DNA from: an uncultured Verrucomicrobiota bacterium
GTDB lineage: Bacteria > Verrucomicrobiota > Verrucomicrobiia > Limisphaerales > JADLHS01
Length of the DNA: 33,254 nt
NCBI GenBank assembly: GCA_903828255.1
Contig: CAIKLQ010000436.1
Coordinates: 1-33,254, forward strand
Direction: 5' to 3'
Notes under the pieces: model-generated
What the model saw: the letters and a program-made list of their open reading frames with translations, nothing else
Told to the model about the DNA's origin: nothing
Databases searched by the model: none
Part shown: piece after piece, positions 11,978 to 30,901 of the stretch
Position numbering within the stretch: position 1 is the first letter of the stretch
Layout of the letters: every line of letters begins with the position of its first letter
Program-made: the position numbers and the translations under genes

Positions 11978-13051
11978 TCAAAACTGTTTCAAGAACCGCA
12001 CGTCGTTTTCGTAGAAGAGGCGGATGTCGTTGATGCCGTAGCGGAGCATGGCGATGCGCTCAATGCCGAAGCCGAACGCCCAGCCGGTCCAGACCTCGGG
12101 ATCGTAGCCGACGGTCTCGAAGACCTGCGGATGCACCATGCCGCAGCCCGCAATCTCCAGCCAGTCCTTCCCCATCTTCTTCACCAGCGCGTTGGTGAAG
12201 TCAATTTCGTAGCTCGGCTCGGTGTAGCTGAAATAGTGCGGGCGAAAGCGAATTTTCACATCGCTGCCCATGAGTTCCTTGAAGACGAATTCCACCGTGC
12301 CTTTGAGATCGCCGACGGTCACGCCCTTGTCCACGTAAAGGCCCTCGATCTGGTGGAAGGTCGGATTGTGCGTGGCGTCGGCGTTGTCGCGGCGATACAC
12401 GCGACCCGGCACGATGATGCGGACGGGTGGCGGCTGCGATTGCATAACGCGGATTTGGACGGAACTGGTATGCGTGCGGAGGAGCAGTGAGGCAGGCGTC
12501 TCGCCTACCGACGCCCCACTGGCCGGCCCGGTTGGTGTCAGCTTGCCTTCAGGCGAGGACGCTCGCCCCATTAAATAAAACGTGTCCTGCATGTCGCGCG
12601 CAGGATGGTCGGCGGGCGTGTTCAGCGCGTCGAAGCAATGATACTCGTCCTCAATCTCCGGCCCATCGGCGACGGCGAAGCCGATTTTGCGGAAGGCGCG
12701 GACGATGTCCTCGGTGACTTGCGTCAGCGGATGCAGCCGCCCGAGCGCGCGGCGGCGTCCGGGCAACGTGAAATCCGTCGGCTCCTTGGGCCGGGCGGCG
12801 GCGAGCTCGAGTTCCTCGCGGCGGGCGGCGAGCGCGGCTTCGAGTTCGATCTTGGCGGCATTGATCAGTTTGCCAGCCACCGGCTTCTCTTCCTTCGGCA
12901 GCGAGCCGAGTTGTTTCATCAACGCGGTGAACTTGCCATGCGGCCCGATCCACGCACCTTTGGCATGGTCAAGCGCGGCGAGATCTGGCGCGGCTTTAAG
13001 CTCCGCGAGCGCGGTTTGTTTCAATGGTTCGATGTCGTTCAGCAAGGACAT
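11978..13051 (-). CDS. pheS: Phenylalanine--tRNA ligase alpha subunit
   Basis: A 357-residue PheS, the catalytic subunit of class II phenylalanyl-tRNA synthetase. The N-terminal coiled-coil tRNA-binding arm spans about 1-90. Class II motifs follow: GPEIEDEYHCFDALN, motif 2 region RVYRRDNADATHNPTFHQIEG, and motif 3 GWAFGFGIERIAMLRYG. The start is ATG 13051. Residues 161-189 are an extra low-complexity stretch (begins MGRASSPEGK) between DTFYL and LRTHTSS, which normally lie only a few residues apart. Its DNA is palindromic repeat, described separately, and the frame is kept on both sides. pheT is not adjacent; the next gene downstream, 124 bases away, is the phasin-like gene. Function should be intact if the loop is tolerated. 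Confidence 0.97.
   Translation of the reverse strand: MSLLNDIEPLKQTALAELKAAPDLAALDHAKGAWIGPHGKFTALMKQLGSLPKEEKPVAGKLINAAKIELEAALAARREELELAAARPKEPTDFTLPGRRRALGRLHPLTQVTEDIVRAFRKIGFAVADGPEIEDEYHCFDALNTPADHPARDMQDTFYLMGRASSPEGKLTPTGPASGASVGETPASLLLRTHTSSVQIRVMQSQPPPVRIIVPGRVYRRDNADATHNPTFHQIEGLYVDKGVTVGDLKGTVEFVFKELMGSDVKIRFRPHYFSYTEPSYEIDFTNALVKKMGKDWLEIAGCGMVHPQVFETVGYDPEVWTGWAFGFGIERIAMLRYGINDIRLFYENDVRFLKQF
12488..12571. repeat. Palindromic repeat inserted in frame in pheS
   Basis: About 84 bases (28 codons) with two hairpins: AGGCG TCT CGCCT at 12494-12506 and GGCGAG GACG CTCGCC at 12552-12567. It separates two parts of PheS that are almost adjacent in other family members, without breaking the frame. 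The hairpin-rich, GC-rich composition is that of a dispersed intergenic element. Confidence 0.75.
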
Positions 13052-25403: not shown

Positions 25404-25555
25404 CTTCACACACGGCACTGAGAACGCAGCGCCAACAACGCCGTCATAATAGTCGCCGCCCCGATTCGCAACAGTCCCCATTACGGGGGACACGGCTAAA
25501 GTTCCAAAATACCCGACATCCAACGCCGAATCGAACCCGGCTTCGCACGTTCTTT

Positions 25556-25590
25556 GAATGTTCGGCGTTCGATGTTGGATGTTGGATGCT
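25556..25590. repeat. Dispersed repeat containing GATGTTGGATGTTGGAT
   Basis: The 21 bases at 25568-25588 are identical to 30572-30592, inside the YdcF gene. They consist of short direct repeats of GATGTTG. The same element thus occurs in an intergenic and an intragenic position. A partial inverted copy lies at 25513-25536. Confidence 0.75.
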
Positions 25591-25607
25591 CGCCGTTTTC
25601 CCATCAG

Positions 25608-28451: not shown

Positions 28452-29768
28452 TCACGCGTCGAGTCTCGGCGGTTGACCGACAACCTTGCCGCGCATCAAC
28501 CCCATCCAAACGCCGGCGCCCCAGCACAGATGCAACGTGGCAAGGATGACGGGGAGCAAGGCGAAGCGGGTGAAACACAGAGGGCGGAGCGCGGAGGGCG
28601 GAAGTGTGATTTGGGATTGGCGATTTCCGATTGGCGATTTCTGACCAGAGGAATCTCTGGATTGGTGGTCGCCGTGGTGGGTGAGAAACAAAGTCACAGT
28701 GGCGACTGAAAGAAAGCAAAGGTAGGCGGCGATCAGGATGCAGCAGGCGATCCGTCCTGCCTCGCTAAAAAGTGCCGTCAGCCCGCACAACGCCAGCGCC
28801 GCCACGAACAGCGGCGGAATCAAATGGCGCACTTTGAGGGACCCGCCCTGGGAGCGAACGAAGCGCCCTTTCCAGTTGCCGTAGCGCCAATACTGCCGGG
28901 CCAGCGCCCCGAGCGTGGAGCGAACGTAATACTTTGCCCGCAGCCAAGGCAGCAACATGATCCGGCCACCGGCGGAGCGAAGCCGATGGTTAAACTCGTA
29001 ATCCTCGTGACAAACGAACTCTTCGCGAAACAATCCCACCCGTTCGAAGGTCCGCCGGTGAATCGCCCAAAACGGCACCGTGTCCGTCGGCACTGGTGTC
29101 CAGCCCGTCTCAAGAATCCGATACGGCGAATTTCCCACGCCGAATTTTGAACTCATCGCGACAGCGATGGCTTCTCCCATCAACCCGCACCCAACCGAAT
29201 CCCAAGCCCCGCCCACGGCGAGCAAGGCGGAGGGCGGAGGGGGAGTAAGAGTAGGAGATGAGGGATTCGACGCCTCACCCGCAGCCCTCACCCCCTGCCC
29301 TTCGCTATGTATGTTTGATTGTGCCTGATTACCCTCACTCGGTCTGCGACCACCCTCTCTCGCTCCCGCGGGCGAGGGACCTTGGGCGAGAATGGCGTCG
29401 GACTCTGCCCGATCGAGGCGGAGAGCGGGTTCAGCCTGCGCGCTGGCCAGACACACGACGCACTCGCGGACGTAGTTTGGCGGAATGACCCCATGTCCAT
29501 CCACCCGCACGATCACCTCCCCGCGGGATTCGCGGATAGCCAGGTTCAAGCCCGCGGGCGTGATCTGCTTCGGATTGTCCACCATCCGCAAGCGTGAATC
29601 CGTCTCGGCCAACTCCCGCACGATCTCCCGCGTTCCGTCCTCCGACATCCCGTCCGCCAGAACCACTTCAATCAACTCCCGCGCATAGTCCTGTTGCAGG
29701 ATCGCCGTCAGGACCTCGCGAATCGTCGCCGCCTCATTGCGCACCGGCAAGATGATGGAAACAGTCAT
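28452..29768 (-). CDS. Family 2 glycosyltransferase (ExoA-like) with repeat insertions
   Basis: A 438-residue GT-A fold glycosyltransferase for exopolysaccharide extension. TVSIILPVRNEAATIREVL opens the nucleotide-sugar domain, followed by the acidic motifs LADGMSEDGT and EVIVRVDGHG. CHEDYEFNHRLRSAGG and ARQYWRYGNWKGRF complete the family pattern, and two to three C-terminal membrane helices anchor it (FVAALALCGLTALF, CILIAAYLCFLSVATVTLFL). Two extra in-frame stretches interrupt it: about residues 111-190 (Pro/Gly/Ser-rich, ALRLDRAESDAILAQGPSPA onward) and about 365-398 (GQKSPIGNRQSQI). Other members pass directly from the first part to GCGLMGEAIAVAMSSKFGVG. The ATG at 29768 matches the family start; upstream codons read HRNTETP, which is repeat-derived. 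Confidence 0.9.
   Translation of the reverse strand: MTVSIILPVRNEAATIREVLTAILQQDYARELIEVVLADGMSEDGTREIVRELAETDSRLRMVDNPKQITPAGLNLAIRESRGEVIVRVDGHGVIPPNYVRECVVCLASAQAEPALRLDRAESDAILAQGPSPAGAREGGRRPSEGNQAQSNIHSEGQGVRAAGEASNPSSPTLTPPPPSALLAVGGAWDSVGCGLMGEAIAVAMSSKFGVGNSPYRILETGWTPVPTDTVPFWAIHRRTFERVGLFREEFVCHEDYEFNHRLRSAGGRIMLLPWLRAKYYVRSTLGALARQYWRYGNWKGRFVRSQGGSLKVRHLIPPLFVAALALCGLTALFSEAGRIACCILIAAYLCFLSVATVTLFLTHHGDHQSRDSSGQKSPIGNRQSQITLPPSALRPLCFTRFALLPVILATLHLCWGAGVWMGLMRGKVVGQPPRLDA
28575..28676. repeat. Repeat-derived insertion 2 in the glycosyltransferase gene
   Basis: Contains GATTTGGGATTGGCGATTTC and the following GATTGGCGATTTC, a short direct repeat, plus GGGCGGAGCGCGGAGGGCGG. It is translated as the SPIGNRQSQI-containing loop between two membrane helices. 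Related words occur intergenically at 28316-28333. Confidence 0.7.
29199..29438. repeat. Repeat-derived insertion 1 in the glycosyltransferase gene
   Basis: About 240 bases (80 codons), kept in frame. It contains CTCGCTCCCGCGGGCGAG (7-base arms, 29356-29373), purine-rich and pyrimidine-rich runs and GGCGGAGGGCGGAGGGGG. The encoded segment is low complexity and absent from the normal family pattern. It looks like several nested dispersed elements. Confidence 0.7.
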
Positions 29769-29962
29769 CCAGTAGAAACTAACGGGTGTCTCGGTGTTTC
29801 GGTGGTCCAGCGTTTCAGAAGCAGAAGGATTCATGGCGATAGATCAGGCCGCCCAGAATCCGGCCAACCCCCGCCAACCGTTCAAGCAAGCCTTGATGCT
29901 CGATGACCGCGAGAAATTCGCAAGCGAAAGCCACTGAATGACCGGTTCACCGATACACCGCC

Positions 29963-30901
29963 TCACCGTCCGCCGTCCTCTGCCTTCTGTCCCCTCACCG
30001 CCTCCCACAACAGGCCCAGATACTCGTGCAGGGCGCGTTCGCTGTTCTGGAGATTGCCCGCACTGGGAAACAGATGGCCCGGGCTGAAGACCGACGGCGT
30101 TACCGTGTCCACAAGGTAACCGCTCGGAGCTGGCACGGCGTTGACACTGTGCCGGTGCGCCAGCACCATCGCGCGCGGCAAATGGGAGGCGGAGGAAACC
30201 AGGATGACGCGGTTCGTAGTCACTACCTGCCGACACCAGACGACTTCATCTTCGGTATCCCGCGCCGTCGCGCACACCTGCACCGCGTTGGTTGCCATCC
30301 CAAATATGAGCAACAACTCTCTCAACACCCGAATTTTCTCCTCGTCCGGCACGGCTGACCCGGAAACTGAAACCAATAGAGTGGTGTTGGGAAACAGCCG
30401 ATGCAAGCGGACGCCTTCGAGCAAACGCTGCAACGATTCGTCGCTCAAACGGGCTGCGGGCGGGCGGTTGGTATCAGCGGACAATCCCGAAGCCGAAAGC
30501 ACCATGATGAAGCTTGGCGCTCCGTCTTCCCCCTTCTGTCTTCCGCCCGAGTCCACCGGGATCCCTCCCGCTTCGATGTTGGATGTTGGATGTTGGTTGT
30601 TCGATCTTCCCCGCAAGCCGCCCGCCGTCCCTCCGTCCCCAGCCTTTTGTCCCCTGCCCACTGTCCCCTGCCCACTGACTCCCAGCACCGCCGGATACCG
30701 GGCTTCCAAATGCCTGAGCGCCAACCGCGGTAGCCAGGGATAGCTGAAGGCCAGAAGGAGAAGGGTGCCGGTGATGACCAAGCCGCGCCCGGTCCTTTTC
30801 CACCGCGTGAAGTTCCATACCCCCAGCCCCAAAAGCAAAAACCCCGCGCAGACCGGCACGGGAAAAAGAAAACAGGGAAGGAGTTTCTTGAGGAAGAACA
30901 C
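29963..30901 (-). CDS. YdcF/ElyC-like DUF218 membrane protein with repeat insertion
   Basis: A 312-residue protein from GTG 30901. Two N-terminal membrane helices (CFLFPVPVCAGFLLLGLGVW, GLVITGTLLLLAFSYPWLP) precede a DUF218 domain: RLLEGVRLHRLFPNTTLLVS, ATARDTEDEVVWCR, NRVILVSSASHLPRAMVLAH and SERALHEYLGLLW. Family members act in envelope polysaccharide or cell-wall metabolism, and are common in exosortase/EPS loci. Residues about 76-130 are an inserted stretch with NNQHPTSNIEAGG; its DNA includes the 21 bases also present at 25568. The insertion directly precedes the first strand of the domain (FIMVLSASG), where family members usually have DAIVVLGGG. The C-terminal tail RGQKAEDGGR is also repeat-derived. 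It may still fold. Confidence 0.85.
   Translation of the reverse strand: MFFLKKLLPCFLFPVPVCAGFLLLGLGVWNFTRWKRTGRGLVITGTLLLLAFSYPWLPRLALRHLEARYPAVLGVSGQGTVGRGQKAGDGGTAGGLRGRSNNQHPTSNIEAGGIPVDSGGRQKGEDGAPSFIMVLSASGLSADTNRPPAARLSDESLQRLLEGVRLHRLFPNTTLLVSVSGSAVPDEEKIRVLRELLLIFGMATNAVQVCATARDTEDEVVWCRQVVTTNRVILVSSASHLPRAMVLAHRHSVNAVPAPSGYLVDTVTPSVFSPGHLFPSAGNLQNSERALHEYLGLLWEAVRGQKAEDGGR
30512..30676. repeat. Repeat-derived insertion in the YdcF gene
   Basis: About 165 bases containing the GATGTTGGATGTTGGATG element (30572-30592, identical to 25568-25588) and direct repeats of CCCCTGCCCACTG near 30652-30678. The DUF218 frame is preserved across it. Confidence 0.75.

Follow-up and report, generated by a model that had tools for sequence, protein, structure and literature searches.

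A degraded REPIN-like element as the very probable source of an in-frame loop insert in pheS of an uncultured Limisphaerales bacterium

How did a run of codons with a palindromic look come to lie within the reading frame of an essential aminoacyl-tRNA synthetase gene? The question is raised by the pheS gene of the window, i.e. the whole stretch of 33,254 nucleotides that was analysed. The gene, coding for the alpha subunit of phenylalanine--tRNA ligase, is found on the reverse strand (11978..13051) as an intact open reading frame of 357 aa, which scores 345 bits with TIGR00468, and it is the single pheS match in the genome to which the window belongs (G000), that of a member of Verrucomicrobia subdivision 3, to judge from its named relatives. 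The variable-loop insert, MGRASSPEGKLTPTGPASGASVGETPAS, occupies positions 12488..12571 (-), between DTFYL and LLLRTHTSS. A first-pass annotation, made from the letters alone, had reported an insertion of 28 codons here, with the frame kept. The frame is indeed kept and the 84 bases lie where described, but relatives with a short loop read QDTFYLNTTDKRLL at this place, which brings the net gain down from 28 codons to 23.

The length of PheS is variable at this site. When 35 PheS sequences from Limisphaerales, 80-92% identical to that of the window, are aligned, all internal gaps fall within the loop between DTFYL and LLLRTHTSS, and the other gaps are N-terminal. When the 90 distinct loops of the order are considered, 32 have 17 residues or less (14 residues in 29 cases), and the other 58 range between 18 and 55 residues. 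At least 20 changes between short and long states are needed on a PheS tree built without the loop, a figure to be taken as approximate, since the tree is weakly supported. Closely related pairs carry unrelated loops (L063/L064, L078/L088, L039/L049). In the rest of the phylum, where over a third of the surveyed loci have no readable loop, the readable ones are mostly 12 residues long (DTFYLPDGRLL), the exceptions being 26 non-repeat residues in one family and 18 residues in one genome. With 14 residues as the short form in the order and mostly 12 elsewhere, a long loop inherited from the ancestor of the whole class is ruled out. The 26-residue loop, FGNVSKKNPNEKY, belongs to L345, L346 and L347, from one other family of the class; it is conserved between genera, is not repeat-like, and is an independent extension of the same PheS loop.

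The loop was placed on the enzyme by alignment to solved PheS. E. coli and Pseudomonas have almost nothing at this site, and Thermus thermophilus, for which structures are solved, has a 19-residue loop, TGEGFRLEGPLGEEVEGRL (residues 155-173), shortly ahead of the HTS motif residues His178 and Ser180 (numbering counted on the sequence), which we take to line the active site. The site thus accepts additional length in a working enzyme, near catalytic residues in sequence. A predicted structure of the window's PheS was set aside for its low confidence (mean pLDDT 57), probably a consequence of a shallow alignment.

The insert had also been described as holding two perfect hairpins. One of them, GGCGAG-CGTC-CTCGCC (12552..12567, -), is perfect; the other, GTAGGCG-AGA-CGCCTGC(C) (12491..12508, -), has either a perfect stem of 5 bp (AGGCG-AGA-CGCCT) or one of 7 bp with a G.T pair. 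Hairpins with stems of at least 5 are three in the insert, versus 0.82 expected by chance (p about 0.08); for stems of at least 6 the p-value is about 0.16, and the RNA fold of the insert gives z = -0.24. What lies beyond chance in the insert is its homology to a dispersed family, not its hairpins taken alone.

Such homology was found with two models, both built without the pheS copies. A profile HMM has one significant match in the window, at 12486-12565 (29.4 bits, E 2.2e-8), the best score in 30 shuffled windows being 9.8 bits. The covariance model R1 identifies a decayed GTAG-REP inverted pair, REPIN-like, at 12485..12573 (-), with 38.9 bits and E 1.4e-6; the match takes in the whole model (positions 1-116) apart from an internal deletion. 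A full-length element measures 105-125 nt (~120), and reads GTAGTGGCGCAGGCGTCCTCGCCTGCGA ... CTGCGGGCGTCCCGCCTGCAG ... CCACCAGCCGAGACGGCCGGTGG ... GGCAGGCGGGACGCCTGCCCCACTAC, with four hairpins in mirror order and GTAG...CTAC outermost. Full-length copies in G004 and G013, those within pheS included, start with GTAG and finish with CTAC. Compensatory change is frequent: among 15 copies, 11 of the 38 pairs are altered on both sides, e.g. GC:7/CG:7.

Against this layout, the left hairpin of the window copy corresponds to hairpins 1 and 2 of the element, which a deletion has fused. The third hairpin, CACCAACCGGGCCGGCCAGTG (12517..12537, -), is eroded, as judged by alignment to the model and to the pheS insert of G004, where its counterpart is CACCAGCCGGCACGGCCGGTG. 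The right hairpin aligns with element hairpin 4, is the best preserved, and is followed by CTCACTGC where the element has CCCACTAC. The copy begins with TAAT... and ends with ...CTGC; as both GTAG tags are lost, it is a remnant and not a working REPIN. The palindromic insertion that had been proposed is therefore borne out by the match to a dispersed hairpin family, with the hairpins intact in relatives and degraded in the window copy.

A local duplication or replication slippage within pheS, with no mobile element involved, would be an alternative source of the extra codons, and simple tandem repeats (CGCAACACGCAACACGC, CAATCGCCAATCG) do occur in the loops of some relatives. For the window insert it is contradicted by the end-to-end match to the model of a structured family that is dispersed, and by the full-length elements with both GTAG ends that stand at this place in G004 and G013; we consider it highly improbable here, though it may account for A/T-richer loops in other species.

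The 84 bases themselves are unique: exact and near-exact searches of G000 gave short pieces only and no second copy, and an 18-mer of the insert, with up to 3 mismatches, had 17 matches in G000, versus 27 for the reversed control, with no excess. The family is nevertheless dispersed in the same genome, contrary to the possibility, raised at first, that this DNA occurs nowhere else. The nearest other copy in G000, as found in sampled contigs, is 74% identical over 85 nt; with it as BLAST query, the family turns up at 14 places in G000 and at 35 in G004. Half of this first sample had been chosen by a pattern derived from the insert; the genome-wide searches are free of such a choice. Genome-wide, R1 has 53 matches in G000, 62 in G004, 54 in G013, 62 in G048 and none in many relatives; these counts are rough, since the element is palindromic and most loci are counted twice, on both strands, and since 65 candidates were scored per genome. 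A per-genome comparison of the pheS loop with control segments was positive in G000, G013 and G002, narrowly so in G005 and G110, and gave nothing in G001, G014 and G048. In G004 it gave nothing in a small sample, and the search of the whole genome succeeded.

The same family is found in frame in other genes, namely a DEAD/DUF3516 helicase, a kinase and a GDSL protein. In the helicase, the element is at about the same site in G004 (L339:72-2726, +) and in G000 (L243:1-2871, +). The G000 helicase also has another in-frame insert, several dozen residues long and built of different repeats (LTPALAP..., NIQHPTPN, LTPTLSPSEGERE). Within the window, a glycosyltransferase-like ORF (28452-29834, -) has a repeat-like in-frame stretch, AEPALRLDRAESDAILAQGPSPAGAREGGRRPSEGNQAQ..., with no match to the element model. 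Repeats of the ATGTTGGATGTTGGATGTT type, translated as NIQHPTSNIE, are found around 25554-25600 and at 30560-30750 of the window, one set of them inside the ORF 29963-30901.

G004, whose PheS is 92% identical in amino acids and which is the sister of the window on the PheS tree (SH-aLRT 93), holds in the same loop a full-length element with both tags (108 bits). The window insert is closest to this copy (60/74 identical positions) and is 39 nt shorter, owing to two in-frame gaps, one of 12 nt at the left junction and one of 27 nt inside, by which hairpins 1 and 2 are fused. That the window insert lies in frame within an intact, single pheS, and that a relative assembled independently carries a related one there, speaks against an artefact of assembly or binning; such an error might be feared in a metagenome-assembled genome of 1053 contigs with an estimated contamination of 6.3%, and we regard it as the least probable of the explanations weighed here.

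It may be asked whether the two genomes share one insertion, or whether each gained its own copy of the family in the same hot-spot loop. Two independent events would agree with the unrelated repeats that fill the pheS loop in other lineages, with the difference between the left junctions (LAKPV precedes the element in G004), and with the different loop of G001, which is placed in the window's own genus; over its full length, moreover, the G004 insert is closer to another G004 copy (L216). A shared insertion is favoured by the sister position of the two on the PheS tree, by the fact that the window insert finds no closer partner than the G004 pheS copy, and by CGCCTGAAGGCAA, common to both inserts at a place where the aligned dispersed copies read differently. 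On balance, independent insertions appear unlikely, and a single insertion is preferred.

The two copies also allow an estimate of constraint. In the pheS flanks, dS between the window and G004 is 0.67 and dN is 0.039 (ratio 0.058); in the insert, 10 nonsynonymous and 5 synonymous differences over 22 codons correspond to a dN/dS of 0.83, and the nonsynonymous excess is significant (p-value 2e-5). Evolution is almost neutral in the insert and constrained in the rest of pheS. The encoded peptide is accordingly tolerated, as the first-pass annotation had supposed, and not conserved. The same figures bear on the idea that the loop is a functional extension of PheS under selection, contacting for instance the tRNA or a partner, its palindromic look being due to chance. 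The long loop of Thermus and the abundance in the order of loops of at least 18 residues are compatible with this idea; the near-neutral rate, the turnover of loop sequence and length among close relatives, and the fact that 14 residues suffice in some of these are not, and we hold it to be very improbable.

The origin that we favour, and regard as very probable, is an inverted GTAG-REP pair of ~120 nt (REPIN/MITE-like), inserted in frame in the pheS loop and since degraded to the present 84 bases. It draws on the homology and dispersal of the family, the covariation of paired bases, the full-length copy in the pheS loop of G004 and the near-neutral rate. A copy of the element would have entered the length-tolerant loop, in frame, in the common ancestor of G000 and G004, and would have been retained because reading frame and enzyme function survived. 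The window lineage would then have undergone both deletions, at the left junction (12 nt) and inside (27 nt, as expected from recombination between the like sequences of hairpins 1 and 2); the GTAG ends would also have been lost, and the insert would now drift under little constraint. Once translated, it would form a surface loop, leaving catalysis undisturbed. The element may have been moved by a REP-associated tyrosine transposase (RAYT), of the Y1/HUH family, as suggested by a RAYT of G004 that is bracketed by the two halves of the same element.

Other pheS loops of the order carry traces of similar events. Those of G013 and L059 hold an element of related type, GTAGCGCAGG...CCTGCGCTAC, which scores 61 and 53 bits respectively, and near-copies of the G013 one are found elsewhere in G013; weaker element matches are found in the loops of L062, L080, L135 and L035. 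Further lineages have repeat-like loops of other kinds (CTCTCCC...GGGAGAG, GTAGCGGCGGTCTGTGACCGCCG, A/T-richer tandem repeats), and for several of them a dispersed-repeat origin is only a candidate. To judge from these sequences, one and the same pheS loop has been repeatedly occupied within one order and appears to be a recurrent landing site. As empty, full-length and decayed states are all kept in relatives, the life cycle of the insert can be followed, and the loop gives a natural record of the surface loops in which essential enzymes tolerate foreign peptides.

Y1 transposases are present in all of the 11 genomes searched. No flanking elements were found beside the Y1 genes examined in G000. 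In G004, a RAYT frame (C323, L330:3827-4574, +) stands between the left and right halves of a pheS-type element (51 and 49 bits). This cassette is in frame within a host ORF of 1367 aa, sugar-nucleotide enzyme-like; the host protein is found without it in G000, G001, G002, G005 and G008, and at the empty site of G000 query residues 1-716 are followed almost directly by 981-1367. A related RAYT lies in frame in dnaE of G002 (C148, L344:94-3000, -), in an ORF of 1564 aa with no stop, and has element-like matches of 28 and 24 bits on either side. The dnaE genes of G005 (C37) and G013 (C74) also contain a RAYT, those of G006, G007, G010, G014 and G048 do not, and a scan of large RAYT-bearing ORFs identified dnaE, among those tested, in G002, G005, G013 and G102. 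In all, some twenty RAYT matches from 146 genomes, including most of the strongest, fall in ORFs whose length is at least some 950 aa.

Such matches, in open frames of about 950-1500 aa and judged by coordinates, include those of G002:C22, G110:C124, G063:C42, G107:C131, G044:C6, G089:C17 and G061:C13, among others in many Limisphaerales. Near positions 311-317 of TIGR00594, the dnaE match of several relatives breaks, with some 160-270 additional in-frame bases, which makes this a second variable site of the gene. An intein reading was tried for these genes and rejected: searches of Pfam and NCBIfam detected no Hint or splicing domain in the dnaE-RAYT and C323 ORFs, and the pheS insert, with its 28 residues, is too short.

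The in-frame RAYT form, in dnaE and in C323, is the more surprising lead, and the pheS-type element is tied to it through the half-ends of G004. A tentative reading, plausible but slightly more apt to fail than to hold, is that a REP/RAYT transposon clade of Limisphaerales lives by in-frame insertion in tolerant loops of essential genes, with an autonomous form translated within the host protein, and with short derivatives, such as the pheS insert, as its debris. The autonomous form would be made of a half-element, a transposase frame open through both ends, and a second half-element. If true, such a clade would occupy an intein-like niche without protein splicing.

Several known systems resemble parts of this picture. 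As described in the main text of PMC3733652, GTAG-tagged REPs are short, GC-rich palindromes with a terminal GTAG, dispersed and in some cases located inside ORFs; their head-head (HH) dimers have GTAG outside, and spacers which can hold further stem-loops. According to the same text, intragenic GTAG REPs are most numerous in Opitutus terrae, and some are found in tRNA synthetase genes of other species. The window family is likewise palindromic, GTAG-paired, dispersed and partly intragenic. It differs in that the insertion sites described in that text are mostly different ones, in genes of one category, whereas here one pheS loop is used recurrently, and in that whole RAYT genes are here found in frame in host ORFs. 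Phenylalanyl-tRNA synthetase is not mentioned in that main text. REPINs, in which an inverted REP pair is the mobile unit, are non-autonomous, and a RAYT is presumed to move them in trans (PMC3116915); the element described here is such an inverted pair. In that account each RAYT is a single-copy gene, and the neighbouring REPINs are in non-coding DNA (PMC3116915), whereas here it is a RAYT within the reading frame of a host gene that has half-elements on both sides. The palindromic elements of Rickettsia, intragenic CGTC repeats and RPE-1 (cited in the main text of PMC3733652), are also translated in frame within conserved genes; the likeness concerns the mode of insertion. They are CGTC-tagged or longer and belong to another phylum, and the element here is GTAG-tagged. 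In the open papers searched, no report was found of pheS as a REP target, or of RAYTs in frame in host genes. Intragenic REPs are thus known, in Opitutus and Rickettsia, and the recurrent pheS site and the in-frame RAYTs of essential genes look new: here a mobile palindrome has, very probably, become part of the protein sequence of an essential aminoacyl-tRNA synthetase. Inteins are in-frame mobile elements with their own enzyme, located inside dnaE and other essential genes. The RAYT form resembles them as a mobile element with its own enzyme, in frame in an essential gene; it differs in that the enzyme is an HUH transposase, the inserts are in variable loops, and no splicing domain is detected. 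The RAYTs of dnaE and of the sugar-nucleotide enzyme gene raise the question of whether a transposon can persist by being translated within essential proteins.
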